The notes under the pieces were generated by a model. The model saw only the letters and a list, made by a program, of their open reading frames with translations, ran no database searches and had not been told where the DNA came from. A stretch of 64,000 nt of DNA from Gemmatimonadota bacterium. GTDB taxonomy: Bacteria; Gemmatimonadota; Gemmatimonadetes; Longimicrobiales; Gaopeijiaceae. This document shows positions 55,920 through 60,628 of the stretch, one piece after another. Where the stretch lies: contig JAJCZZ010000045.1 in NCBI GenBank assembly GCA_029262115.1, positions 1 through 64,000 of the forward strand, given 5' to 3'. The position numbers and the translations under genes are program-made. Position 1 is the first letter of the stretch. The number at the start of each line of letters is the position of its first letter.

Positions 55920-58690
55920 CGAAGTCGGGGCCCACGCCTTGGACGATCGACCTCTCGCGGGCCGCGGCAGCCAGCCTCCGGGCACTGGAGCCCGCCGAAC
56001 GCCGTGAGGTCGCATCCCGCTTGGATGCTCTGGCGGAGCACGGCCCGGCTCGACCCATCGGCGATGCGGCGGCAGAGGCCGGCGATCAGGTCGTCGAGTT
56101 GCTCGCCGGAGGCCAACGCCTCGTCTGTGCGATCTCGCCAAGAGACCGGGCAGTGGTGGTCGTCACGATGCAGGCGATCGAGCAATCCACGGGTGGGGCG
56201 CTGAGGCGCCTGGCCCACACGCGTTTTCGCATGCTGATGGGAGGAGGGGGGGTCATGGAGACGATACGGGAGGTGGGGCAGGCGACGAGGAGCCTGCGGA
56301 GGGCGCCAGGGTTCACCGCTACAGCGGTTGTCACGCTTGCGCTGGGAATCGGAGCGAGCGCCGCAGTCTTCAGCGTGGCCAATGGGGTCCTCTTGAGGCC
56401 GCTTCCGTACGGAGAGCCGGACCGCGTCGTGACCGTCTGGAGCCAGTGGTCGGGGTACGACAAGACGTGGTTGTCGTTGGACGAGTATGTGAACTACTCG
56501 CAACAGAACCGGACGCTCGGGGATCTGGCGTTGTATTTCACGTCGAGCCACGCGTTCACCGATCCGGAGAACCCCGAGTTGGTGGGCTCGGCCGTCGTGA
56601 CTCCGAACACGCTCGATGTGGTGCGGGTGGAGCCCGTGCTGGGGCGGGGGTTCACGTGGGAGGAGGCCGCGGCGGAGGTTTCCGTTGTGATGTTGGCGTA
56701 TGAGACCTGGCAGCGTCGGTACGGTGGGGACCCCGGCGTAGTCGGGAGGGACGTTTCGGTCATCGGCCGGGACTTCACCGTGATCGGGGTGCTCCCGGAG
56801 GGCTTCATTCTCCCCGCCGACTACGGGTCGGCGCAGACGGCCGAGATCTTTTTCGCACTCTCGGTCGATCGAGAGTCGCCTGCCCAAGTGCCCCCGAGCG
56901 GTGGCGGCCATGGCTACTACGGGGTGGGGCGCCTCCTGCCCGAAGCCGACCTTGCCGCGGCTCGAGCCGACTTCGTGGCCATTTCGGGTCGCTTGGCAGC
57001 CGCCGGCGTCTATCCCGAGGCCTGGAACTTCCGTCCGCTCGTGTTCAACGCGGCCGATGACATCGCGGGATCGGCGAAGGGCACGATTCTGTTCCTCCTG
57101 GCCGCGTGCGGCCTGGTTCTGCTGATTGCGTGCGCGAACGTCGCCAGCCTCTTGCTGAGCCGCTCCGAGGGCCGGCTACGGGATGTGGCGGTGCGACGGG
57201 CTCTGGGCGCGGGCTCCACCACCATCGTGCGCGGGCTCGTTCTGGAAAGCCTTGTCCTGGCCCTTTCGGCCGGTGCCCTGGGGCTCCTGTTCGCGCAACT
57301 CGGCATCCAGGGCCTTCTCAGGATGAATCCGGAGGCTGTACCGCGGGCGGCGGAGGTCGTGCTGGACGGTACGGTCGTCGGCTTCGTCGTGATCGTCGCT
57401 GGACTGACGGCCATCGCATTCGGCGCGGTCCCGGCTATTCGGGTAGCGCGCGGCGGCGTGGCCGGCTCCCTCCACCGCGGCGGTCGTGGTTCCGGCGCCG
57501 GGGCGAGGGGCAACCGCCTGCAGGGTCTGCTCGTGGCCAGCCAGATGGCGATGGCGGTGACCCTACTCGCGGCGGCCGGGCTCACGATGCGCGCGTTCGT
57601 GTCGCTTCTGCGGGTGGATCTGGGCTTCGAGACGGAGCGAGTGCTCACGGCGCGACTAACCGTGCCCTCGGCGACGTATCCCGGGCTGAGCGAGGTGACC
57701 CAGTTCTGGGACGAGTTGGTTCGGCGTGTCGAGGAGGTCCCGGGTGTGAGTAGCGCGGGCGTGGCGCGGCTGCTGCCGCTCGATTCGCAGATGGGTGACT
57801 CCGGCTTCTACCCCGTGGGATACGCTCCCTCGGATGGCGAGATCATGAGTGCGGACTGGCAGTATGTCGGTCCGGGATACATCGAAACCATGGGGATACC
57901 GTTGGTGGCGGGTCGGACGTTCGAGGCGGGGGACCACGCCGATGCCCCGGCAGCCATGCTACTCAACCAGTCGGCAGCGAGGCGGTACTGGCCGAACAGC
58001 GACCCGATCGGTAGTCGGGTCGCGACGTTCGGAGGCGATACCGCAGTGGTCGCCGGGATTGTCGGGGATATCCGACACAACAGCGTGACGTCAGTAGCCA
58101 AGCCGCGCTACTACCGCGCTATTCATCAACTGAACGGGCCAGGGAACGCGCTACGGATGACCCTCACCGCGCGCACGCAGGTTCCGCCCGAGGATCTCAT
58201 TCCAGCCGTGCGCTCCATCGTCCGTGAGATGGACCCGACCATGGCTCTCTCCCGGGTCCAGACCATGGAGCAGGTGGCGGGCGATGCCGTCGCCCAACCC
58301 CGCTTTGCCGTGGTGCTCCTCCTCGTGTTCGCCGTGCTCGCGACCACCCTCGCGGTGGTCGGGATCTACGGCGTTCTCGCCTACGCGGTGAGTCGCCGGA
58401 CCCAGGAGATCGGAGTGAGGATGGCCCTGGGGGCGGACCGGAGCGCCGTGGTCGGGATGGTCGTGCGCCAGGGCATGGTGATGGCCGTACTCGGAGTGGC
58501 GGTCGGCACGGTGCTGGCCATCGCTTCCGGAAGCGTCGTCGAAAGCCTGATGGTCGGGGTGGACGCGGGCGACCCGCTCACCCTGGCGGGCGTCGTGGTG
58601 CTTTTCGCGGGGGTGGCGCTCGTCGCATGTTGGATCCCGGCCGCTCGGGCCGCACGGATCCCGCCGACCGAAGCGCTTCGGTACGAGTAG
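55916..58690 (+). CDS. RelE-like toxin domain fused in frame to ADOP-type ABC permease
   Basis: One uninterrupted 924-codon frame. Residues 1-90 resemble a RelE/ParE toxin (WTIDLSRAAAASLRALEPAE, RREVASRLDALAEHG, RDRAVVVVTMQAIEQ). From residue 114 it is an ADOP/MacB-type permease: VGQATRSLRRAPGFTATAVV, MacB periplasmic domains, FtsX helices (LLAACGLVLLIACANVASLL, and QPRFAVVLLLVFAVLATTLA), ending IPPTEALRYE. An internal ATG at 56255 with a strong Shine-Dalgarno would give a normal 811-aa permease. So either a true fusion or a toxin gene that lost its stop codon, with the permease initiated separately. No ATPase gene is adjacent, as is usual for ADOP orphans. Confidence 0.75.
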   Translation: MTKSGPTPWTIDLSRAAAASLRALEPAERREVASRLDALAEHGPARPIGDAAAEAGDQVVELLAGGQRLVCAISPRDRAVVVVTMQAIEQSTGGALRRLAHTRFRMLMGGGGVMETIREVGQATRSLRRAPGFTATAVVTLALGIGASAAVFSVANGVLLRPLPYGEPDRVVTVWSQWSGYDKTWLSLDEYVNYSQQNRTLGDLALYFTSSHAFTDPENPELVGSAVVTPNTLDVVRVEPVLGRGFTWEEAAAEVSVVMLAYETWQRRYGGDPGVVGRDVSVIGRDFTVIGVLPEGFILPADYGSAQTAEIFFALSVDRESPAQVPPSGGGHGYYGVGRLLPEADLAAARADFVAISGRLAAAGVYPEAWNFRPLVFNAADDIAGSAKGTILFLLAACGLVLLIACANVASLLLSRSEGRLRDVAVRRALGAGSTTIVRGLVLESLVLALSAGALGLLFAQLGIQGLLRMNPEAVPRAAEVVLDGTVVGFVVIVAGLTAIAFGAVPAIRVARGGVAGSLHRGGRGSGAGARGNRLQGLLVASQMAMAVTLLAAAGLTMRAFVSLLRVDLGFETERVLTARLTVPSATYPGLSEVTQFWDELVRRVEEVPGVSSAGVARLLPLDSQMGDSGFYPVGYAPSDGEIMSADWQYVGPGYIETMGIPLVAGRTFEAGDHADAPAAMLLNQSAARRYWPNSDPIGSRVATFGGDTAVVAGIVGDIRHNSVTSVAKPRYYRAIHQLNGPGNALRMTLTARTQVPPEDLIPAVRSIVREMDPTMALSRVQTMEQVAGDAVAQPRFAVVLLLVFAVLATTLAVVGIYGVLAYAVSRRTQEIGVRMALGADRSAVVGMVVRQGMVMAVLGVAVGTVLAIASGSVVESLMVGVDAGDPLTLAGVVVLFAGVALVACWIPAARAARIPPTEALRYE
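56238..56257 (+). promoter_or_regulatory. Internal ribosome binding site and permease start
   Basis: TGGGAGGAGGGGGGGTCATG: a long purine-rich Shine-Dalgarno four bases or more before the ATG at 56255, inside the toxin-permease frame. It translates as the odd glycine run MGGGGVM at the junction, which suggests this DNA evolved as a start signal rather than as coding linker. Confidence 0.65.
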
Positions 58691-58772
58691 CGGCGCGGGC
58701 GGGGGGACGGCGCGGGCGCCCCGGTCACGGACCTCGCGGCGTCCCTGTGTCGCGGCAACCCGAGGGCAGCGC

Positions 58773-58814
58773 TTGCCCACACTCCACTGGCCGATTATAG
58801 TTGCACATGGCAAC
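58773..58814 (+). promoter_or_regulatory. Promoter and operator of the MarR gene, leaderless layout
   Basis: TTGCCC at 58773-58778, a 17-base spacer, and TATAGT at 58796-58801. The expected start of transcription, six or seven bases downstream, falls at the ATG at 58807. GTTGC-N5-GCAAC (58800-58814) spans that point, so a repressor bound there would block initiation. A related GTTGCAAC palindrome at 59400-59407 lies before arsM. Confidence 0.6.
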
Positions 58815-59352
58815 CATCTCTGCAGCGTCGGATCAGGTGATCGCGGGCGGTGCGCCGCCCGAGTCGAATCCGCACCCGTCCCTCGAGGCGGAAGCGCACG
58901 ACTTCTACTCATCCCTGACTGATCTCCTGAAGGTGGTGCAGTTCCGGGATCGGGATCGGGCGTGCTGCTACGACGTAAGCGTCGCACAGTGCTACGCGCT
59001 GCAAACGGTTGCCGAGGGGGGGCCGCTAGCCGTGAACGACCTCGCCGGGAGCCTGTTTCTGGACAAGAGCACGGCGAGCCGGATCGCGGGTGCGCTCGAA
59101 ACGAAGGGGTACGTCCATCGGCGGGGTGATCCGGACGATGGACGGGTGGTGCGTCTGGAGGTCACGCCGGCCGGTGCTGCGCTGAACCGACGGATCGAGG
59201 ACGATCTGTCAGAGGAGTACGCCCGTCTCCTCAAGGACTTCCCGGCGGAAGTCCGTACCGGGATGATCCGGCTTCTGCGAAGACTCGCCACCACGTTCTC
59301 GTCGCGGGTGGACGCATCCGGTGGGAGTTGCTGCACGATCCAAAAGGACTGA
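58807..59352 (+). CDS. MarR-family regulator with vicinal cysteines, arsM-linked
   Basis: A 181-aa winged-helix repressor. The HTH reads GGPLAVNDLAGSLFLDKSTA then SRIAGALETKGYVHRRGDPD, followed by the wing DDGRVVRLEVTPAG. Cysteines stand out: Cys53-Cys54 and Cys62 in RACCYDVSVAQCYAL, and Cys175-Cys176 in GGSCCTIQKD. Such pairs suit As(III) or thiol sensing. The next gene is arsM, so this protein probably de-represses it when arsenite binds. A TTG six bases upstream is possible as start, but the ATG fits the promoter. Confidence 0.75.
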   Translation: MATISAASDQVIAGGAPPESNPHPSLEAEAHDFYSSLTDLLKVVQFRDRDRACCYDVSVAQCYALQTVAEGGPLAVNDLAGSLFLDKSTASRIAGALETKGYVHRRGDPDDGRVVRLEVTPAGAALNRRIEDDLSEEYARLLKDFPAEVRTGMIRLLRRLATTFSSRVDASGGSCCTIQKD

Positions 59353-59430
59353 GACCACTTGCCGTCGCGATTCCGGCGGCTTCTTGTGTACGTTTTTTTG
59401 TTGCAACCTACAACCACATGAGAGGATCTG

Positions 59431-60258
59431 ATGGCCCATACGGATGAAGAAGTGCGAAGCGCAGTCCGCGACCGTTACGCGAAGGCCGCCACGGAGGGGG
59501 CGTCTTGTTGCGAACCGAGCTGTTGCGGCCCCGACTCCACGCCGGGGGCCGAGACGATCTCGAAGGCGATCGGCTACACCGAGGAGGAACTGGAAGGGAT
59601 CCCCGAGGCCGCCAACTTGGGCCTCGGATGTGGAAATCCGACCGCCATCGCCTCGCTGGAGCGGGGGCAGACCGTTCTCGATCTCGGATCCGGAGCCGGC
59701 ATCGACTGCTTTCTCGCATCGAAGAAGGTGGGGCCCACCGGCAAGGTCATCGGTGTCGATATGACGCCGGAGATGCTCGCCCGGGCTCGTGAGAATGCGC
59801 GCCAAGGGGACTTCACCAACGTGGAGTTCCGGCTCGGCGAGATCGAAGCGCTCCCGGTAGCCGACCGTAGTGTCGACGTCATCATTTCGAACTGCGTTCT
59901 AAATTTGAGCTCGGATCGCGCAAGAGTTCTGCGCGAAGCGTTTCGGGTGCTTCGCACCGGCGGAAGGATCGTGGTCTCGGACATGGTATCGGAGTATGCG
60001 ATCCCAACTGCGGTCGCAGGATCACTCGACGCCGTCGCCGGGTGCCTGCCGACACCCAGGGCCGACTACATCCGCGAGTTCGAGGAGGCGGGCTTCTCCG
60101 ATGTGAGCATCAGCGGTGAGAAGCCGTACCCAGCCAGCTATCTCACGTCCGACCCCGGCGTGAAAGCGTTCATCGAGGCGCACCCGGACACCGTCGAGGA
60201 GATCCAAGCGTTCGCGGCGTCGATTTCGGGTGCGGTGATCGTGGGGCATCGGAGGTAG
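59431..60258 (+). CDS. arsM: Arsenite S-adenosylmethionine methyltransferase
   Basis: A 275-aa enzyme that methylates arsenite using SAM. The SAM site is TVLDLGSGAGIDCFLASKKV. The three conserved arsenic-binding cysteines are at 67 (GLGCGNPTAIASL), 155 (ISNCVLNLSSD) and 205 (VAGCLPTPRADYI). The N-terminus adds two vicinal pairs (ASCCEPSCCGP, residues 26-27 and 31-32). GAGAGG precedes the ATG. It confers arsenic resistance and yields methylated, partly volatile arsenicals. Confidence 0.95.
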   Translation: MAHTDEEVRSAVRDRYAKAATEGASCCEPSCCGPDSTPGAETISKAIGYTEEELEGIPEAANLGLGCGNPTAIASLERGQTVLDLGSGAGIDCFLASKKVGPTGKVIGVDMTPEMLARARENARQGDFTNVEFRLGEIEALPVADRSVDVIISNCVLNLSSDRARVLREAFRVLRTGGRIVVSDMVSEYAIPTAVAGSLDAVAGCLPTPRADYIREFEEAGFSDVSISGEKPYPASYLTSDPGVKAFIEAHPDTVEEIQAFAASISGAVIVGHRR

Positions 60259-60628
60259 GGGGATCCTGTGGCGGCCGGGAGCGGGCGCCACCGTCGGAGC
60301 TCGTAAACGGTCCTACGGATGGCGGACAGCGTCCATCGCTCTGAGTCTGCACGCCAGGCCGACGCCACCCCCACGCTACTGTCGATTATCGCTCTGGTGA
60401 TGGGAACAGGGTTGCATCCCCACTCTGCTCGCACGATCCGCCTCCGGCCTCGCCGCCGAGCATCAAATACGTCCATACTGGCACGCCCCCGGGCTCCCGG
60501 TGTCGGCGTACTGGATAGGCAACTCAGCAGGGTCGCGATAGAACTCAATTCCCTGTATCGCAGTAACCGAGACCAGATGTCAAGTCAAAGCATCTGAAGG
60601 CGAGTCGCCCCAATGCGCCACCCTGCCT
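60259..60628. other. Intergenic region without a recognised gene
   Basis: About 370 bases between the convergent arsM and propeller pseudogene ends. No domain, repeat or convincing terminator is seen. It marks a fall in GC toward the propeller genes on the right. Confidence 0.5.

Follow-up and report, generated by a model that had tools for sequence, protein, structure and literature searches.

A MarR-family gene next to arsM in a Gemmatimonadota genome: a probable arsenic-responsive repressor with a predicted operator over its own start codon

The window (the whole stretch of 64,000 nucleotides that was analysed, from a Gemmatimonadota bacterium) contains a gene for a MarR-family protein, called marR here, followed on the same strand by arsM, the gene for an arsenite methyltransferase. 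The two genes and the elements around them are as follows.

58773..58801, + strand: marR promoter, with -35 TTGCCC at 58773-58778, a spacer of 17 nt and -10 TATAGT at 58796-58801 (from sequence and scan)
58800..58814, + strand: operator O1, GTTGCACATGGCAAC, which overlaps the -10 and contains the start codon (from conservation near marR in relatives)
58807..59352, + strand: marR, a MarR-family protein of 181 aa, predicted leaderless (from Pfam, fold prediction and relatives)
59361..59399, + strand: terminator-like hairpin (59361-59380) and T7 tract (59393-59399), between marR and O2 (from scan)
59400..59414, + strand: operator O2, GTTGCAACCTACAAC, in the arsM leader (common to arsM leaders of marR-bearing genomes)
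59431..60258, + strand: arsM, arsenite methyltransferase, 275 aa, with a Cys-rich N-terminus (NF008823, 320 vs 263 bits)

The geometry of the marR start can be read directly: TATAGT is followed by five bases and then by the ATG at 58807-58809, and O1 (GTTGC-ACATG-GCAAC) spans the end of the -10 element, the predicted transcript start and the ATG. Both the five-base spacing and the GTTGC-N5-GCAAC repeat over the start had been pointed out in the original prediction, and both are present. It also placed arsM downstream of marR, and the next gene does pass the NCBIfam cut-off for arsenite methyltransferases. The palindrome that it described in the arsM leader, GTTGCAAC, exists, and is actually the left part of O2 (GTTG-CAACCTA-CAAC), which fits the same pattern as O1, GTTG-N7-CAAC. 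The marR promoter is the sole sigma70-like match in 58600-60500 (0.3 expected), with a -35 element that matches only 4 of 6 consensus positions. Terminator-like sites number two in the scan against 0.8 expected, which is weak taken alone. Within the window alone, the repeats show no excess over chance (four one-mismatch matches vs 1.5 expected), and GTTGCAAC, found once against 0.35 expected, is likewise within chance; the weight of the operator therefore comes from its conservation among relatives.

The marR product scores above the cut-offs of two MarR profiles of Pfam (PF12802, 47.3 vs 27 bits, and PF01047, 42.6 vs 24.6), and its predicted structure (pLDDT 86) has the MarR fold, with MexR, Rv0880 and other MarR proteins as the nearest solved structures, which confirms the type originally assigned to it. 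The Pfam scan gave no match to the ArsR profile PF01022, and none of the characterised MarR equivalog models was matched above its cut-off. An orthologue at more than 100 bits is present in about 28 of 96 genomes of one bacterial family; ordinary MarR proteins score about 40 bits. Judged by sequence, the protein belongs to a distinct family of MarR proteins. A scan of genome contigs found 73 loci, mostly in Gemmatimonadota and Acidobacteriota; the other hosts were Planctomycetota, Latescibacterota, Pseudomonas benzenivorans, Elstera litoralis, and one assembly each of Zixibacteria and Krumholzibacteria. Plasmid records contained three further Pseudomonas loci, in arsenic islands. After duplicate removal 78 loci were tabulated, and most of the relatives come from metagenome assemblies, whose phylum labels depend on binning.

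The cysteines singled out at the start (Cys53/54, Cys62 and Cys175/176) are correctly numbered. In the predicted model Cys53 and Cys54 stand at the end of helix 1 (residues 24-55), Cys62 is early in helix 2 (59-71), and Cys175/176 belong to a tail predicted with low confidence. The first 28 relatives aligned all have Cys53 and Cys54; in the wider set Cys53 is conserved in 75 of 77 proteins, the Cys53-Cys54 pair in 68 of 77, and Cys62 in 65 of 78. The original emphasis on the cysteines thus holds for Cys53, which is near universal and mostly accompanied by Cys54, and not for Cys62 and the C-terminal pair, which are common but dispensable. Homologues that lack cysteine pairs and are still linked to arsM, proposed in advance as evidence against the idea, do exist in part: three proteins have no Cys54 yet are arsM-linked, each retaining Cys53 and Cys62 (L099, L114, L117), and one has no C-terminal pair and is still beside arsM (L088). 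Five arsM-adjoining members have no Cys62 (L072, L077, L092, L103, L116). An apparent internal TGA in L017-L019, considered as a selenocysteine codon, is simply the normal stop codon that follows the C-terminal cysteines.

By a strict count, arsM, an arsN-type GNAT gene, arsC or ACR3 lies near marR at 50 of the 78 loci. A loose count reaches 62 of 78 by adding an ArsO-like FAD oxidoreductase and an ArsK-like MFS transporter, which score 34.8 of 425 bits and 71.7 of 400 bits against their family cut-offs; a few of the arsenic-gene matches are kilobases off or on the opposite strand. At sixteen of the 78 loci no arsenic gene was recognised within the stretch examined, in some cases because the contig ends. 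The pairing of marR with arsM does recur in other genomes, with an arsM match at 41 of the 78 loci, two of them weak generic methyltransferases located upstream (L045, L049). At L066 the GNAT gene, arsM, arsC and ACR3 stand consecutively; the GNAT is above the ArsN2 cut-off and the transporter above that of ACR3, and the arsC-like protein is below its own. In Pseudomonas amygdali a marR relative is divergent from arsQ-arsL-arsM, and some Pseudomonas relatives sit in annotated ars islands. The source genome also has an arsR adjoining acr3, on another contig.

Several loci depart from this layout. In one genome (G020; loci L029 and L167) a tyrosine-recombinase frame comes after marR and arsM is on a different contig; the marR-arsM pair looks to have been broken near O2 by an insertion or rearrangement. 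Tiny Cys-Cys-rich frames of 14-32 aa directly follow marR at L067, L068, L073, L085, L086, L113 and L119. These frames (e.g. MGCCDLPICPTGCC and MFNPKLSPTVFVCCLTEPDDDGGGCCGGGGCC) have a Shine-Dalgarno sequence and occupy the usual position of arsM, in four cases behind an O2 site (L067, L068, L073, L085). The one peptide that was checked has no Pfam match; we regard them as candidate arsenic-binding peptides. In an Acidobacteria assembly (L115:4476-5810) the gene after a marR relative is hgcA (NF040863, 394.9 vs 275 bits), extended at its N-terminus by a Cys-Cys-rich stretch; the same locus has a 4Fe-4S ferredoxin frame resembling hgcB.

This gene company bears on the nature of the signal. We infer arsenic as the signal from the genes found beside marR across phyla, and gene linkage by itself does not name a ligand. 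The same circuit may instead respond to a methylated or organic trivalent arsenical, to antimonite or to mercury rather than to inorganic arsenite, given that relatives adjoin an arsinothricin cluster, ArsN-type genes and, once, hgcA; neighbouring ACR3 and arsC suit the handling of arsenite and arsenate, and we give such other ligands a clearly lower chance, though a real one. A redox or peroxide sensor like OhrR or MexR, forming cysteine disulfides and controlling the arsenic genes within a thiol stress response, would agree with MexR being among the nearest folds and with the ability of vicinal cysteines to oxidise. Among the neighbours of the relatives we recognised no genes for peroxide defence, and arsenic genes recur there across phyla, so a sensor of this kind seems improbable.

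A perfect GTTG-N7-CAAC lies near the marR start at 61 of the 78 loci, compared with 3 of 586 control windows of 300 bp. The consensus over 68 sites is TAGTTG-N7-CAACTA, and TTGAC stands 27-28 nt upstream in most of them, so that TATAGT and the first half-site form one sequence. At 15 loci an in-frame ATG lies inside O1 right after the -10, at the identical position in the spacer; the predicted leaderless arrangement is thus conserved. A -35 TTGAC at the same place, with at least 5 of 6 positions matched, is present at 13 of these 15 loci vs 6.7% of shuffles. Fourteen of the 15 share a single branch of the tree (SH-aLRT 93, by a quick method), which also has eight members without the ATG; the remaining one is from Vicinamibacteria (L090). 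Both the operator over its own start codon and the leaderless gene, proposed from a single sequence, are supported by this comparison among relatives, and the marR transcript is predicted to start at the start codon.

It is very unlikely, in our estimate, that marR is not leaderless, that is, that translation begins further downstream and an ATG falls within the operator by chance. Base preferences of the operator favour A, T and G somewhat at those positions, so that an ATG is likelier there than the 1 in 64 at which its chance was reckoned with independence (both generous assumptions), and other branches of marR relatives do start downstream of the operator. Against this, the in-frame ATG is present at 15 loci, two of which (L025, L035) have no alternative start before helix 1 except an adjacent TTG. 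Leaderless genes probably exist more generally in the source genome: an enrichment of TANNNT is seen elsewhere in it, 5-6 nt ahead of the first ATG, in 6 of 133 genes with marR included, a weak baseline drawn from 403 kb of contigs with the offsets picked after the counts had been seen. A search of the same genome for further operators gave 8 strict matches vs 20 for the reversed control, so only the marR site is credible; the pattern used (AGTTG) misses O2.

The presence of an operator before arsM is associated with that of the regulator. An operator with at most one mismatch lies upstream of arsM in 14 of 20 marR-bearing genomes vs 0 of 10 marR-less ones (Fisher P=0.0003, for 30 arsM loci in one family of related genomes and with kinship ignored). 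One genome (G071) has an unlinked arsM on another contig with its own operator promoter, TTGACC-N17-TATTATAGTTG, which suggests control at a distance. Another (G041, locus L163) has arsM without marR, and no operator was found before that arsM; the last residues of an upstream frame there are GSCCVVRG-like and resemble the C-terminus of marR. In this genome marR appears to have been lost, leaving what looks like a C-terminal stub of it fused to the upstream gene.

O2 is found no more than 110 nt after the marR stop at 38 loci. A T-tract of at least four precedes it at 25 of the 38, typically 9-13 nt upstream and in twelve cases at exactly 9 nt, vs 4 of 68 for O1, and tracts of T5 or longer precede 18 of 38 O2 sites vs 0 of 68 O1 sites; the pattern was noticed during exploration and not predicted, and the counts ignore kinship, the 9-nt spacing being found in different phyla. 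Tracts of T6-8 ending exactly 9 nt before O2 occur in L070, L073, L085, L095, L101, L105, L109, L117 and others, again from different phyla. The window itself is not typical, since its T7 (59393-59399) abuts O2 with a gap of 0. An intrinsic terminator was rejected as a general explanation of the T-tract, since only a minority of loci have a clear hairpin beside it. At three loci (L101, L109, L121) a T6 directly follows O2 (e.g. GTTGCAAGATGCAACTTTTTT), and palindrome and T6 could there double as a short terminator hairpin.

The T-tract before O2 suggests roadblock control, in which repressor bound at O2 would stall the polymerase, the RNA would end in the U-tract and the polymerase would be released; one protein would thus shut its own promoter and cut read-through. 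Almost as likely as not to be the correct account, O2 may be no roadblock site and simply an ordinary second promoter of arsM. A -10-like ATAGT stands before O2, the full promoter of the unlinked arsM in G071 includes an operator, and a promoter without a -35 and with a T-rich spacer is possible; against it, 40 O2 sites show no -35 above shuffles, unlike O1, and O2 has no bias towards the initial T of a -10.

The promoter, the operator, the start geometry, the cysteines, the arsenic gene company and the association of operator with regulator are features of the sequences; DNA binding, repression, arsenic as ligand, release and the exact transcript start are what we infer. Taken together, the marR product is probably a thiol-based repressor of the MarR fold that responds to arsenic and regulates its own gene. 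In the absence of arsenic, its dimer would occupy TAGTTG-N7-CAACTA; at O1 it would mask the -10 of its own leaderless gene together with the transcript start and the start codon, and at O2 it would hold arsM low. Trivalent arsenic would bind the Cys53-Cys54 pair that closes helix 1, with probable help from Cys62 or from the mobile Cys-Cys tail at the C-terminus, and the arsenic-bound protein would leave the DNA, allowing marR and arsM to be expressed. L094, the only member without Cys53, Cys54 and Cys62, has neither operator nor arsenic genes and is counted in favour of the arsenic repressor, as one observation and not a test. Counted against it are the arsM-linked cysteine variants, the separate arsR by acr3, the 16 of 78 loci without arsenic genes and the -35 element with 4 of 6 matches. 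We are doubtful of the wider proposition, namely that MarR arsenic sensors form a widespread family whose circuit has two operators, a roadblock at O2 and Cys-Cys-rich peptides in its regulon, and put it forward tentatively.

Palindromes over promoter elements are standard for MarR proteins. MarR, MexR, OhrR and CrtR share the fold and a palindrome of 16-20 bp over promoter elements; the family described here differs from them in the conserved Cys-Cys ending helix 1 and in its arsenic gene company. ArsR/SmtB proteins (PF01022), such as TtSmtB of Thermus thermophilus (PMC5658604), are likewise small autoregulated winged-helix repressors, and resemble the marR product in the proposed cysteine-bound trivalent arsenic and in their arsenic gene targets, whereas the latter has a MarR profile and fold, its own operator TAGTTG-N7-CAACTA and no ArsR match. 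A leaderless MarR gene has been reported, that of CrtR in C. glutamicum (PMC5401885). Autoregulation by transcriptional roadblock is known for LacI at O3 (PMC3711431), and ArsR roadblocks have been engineered (PMC10310618); there too a repressor downstream of a promoter could halt the elongating polymerase, as hypothesised for O2, but here a spaced T-tract precedes the operator. ArsR-like control of hgcAB is reviewed in PMC10349881, which also notes two other species with MarR genes close to hgcA; L115 is similar in having an arsenic-linked regulator beside mercury-methylation genes, and different in that its regulator is a MarR relative. MarR operators, a leaderless MarR gene and repressor roadblocks are known already; in the open-licence papers searched we found no MarR arsenic-sensor family, nor a characterised MarR protein connected with arsenic, arsM, ACR3 or arsinothricin.

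ArsR proteins are generally credited with arsenic sensing in bacteria. If the reading given here is true, MarR-fold proteins of several phyla would solve the same task independently, and a function could be given to many 'MarR family' genes still without a name in loci for arsenic, arsinothricin and perhaps mercury methylation. The protein would also be a new sensor part with a well-defined operator. A start codon within the operator would place binding site and coding start under joint constraint, and O2 with its spaced T-tract would be a testable candidate for natural roadblock control.
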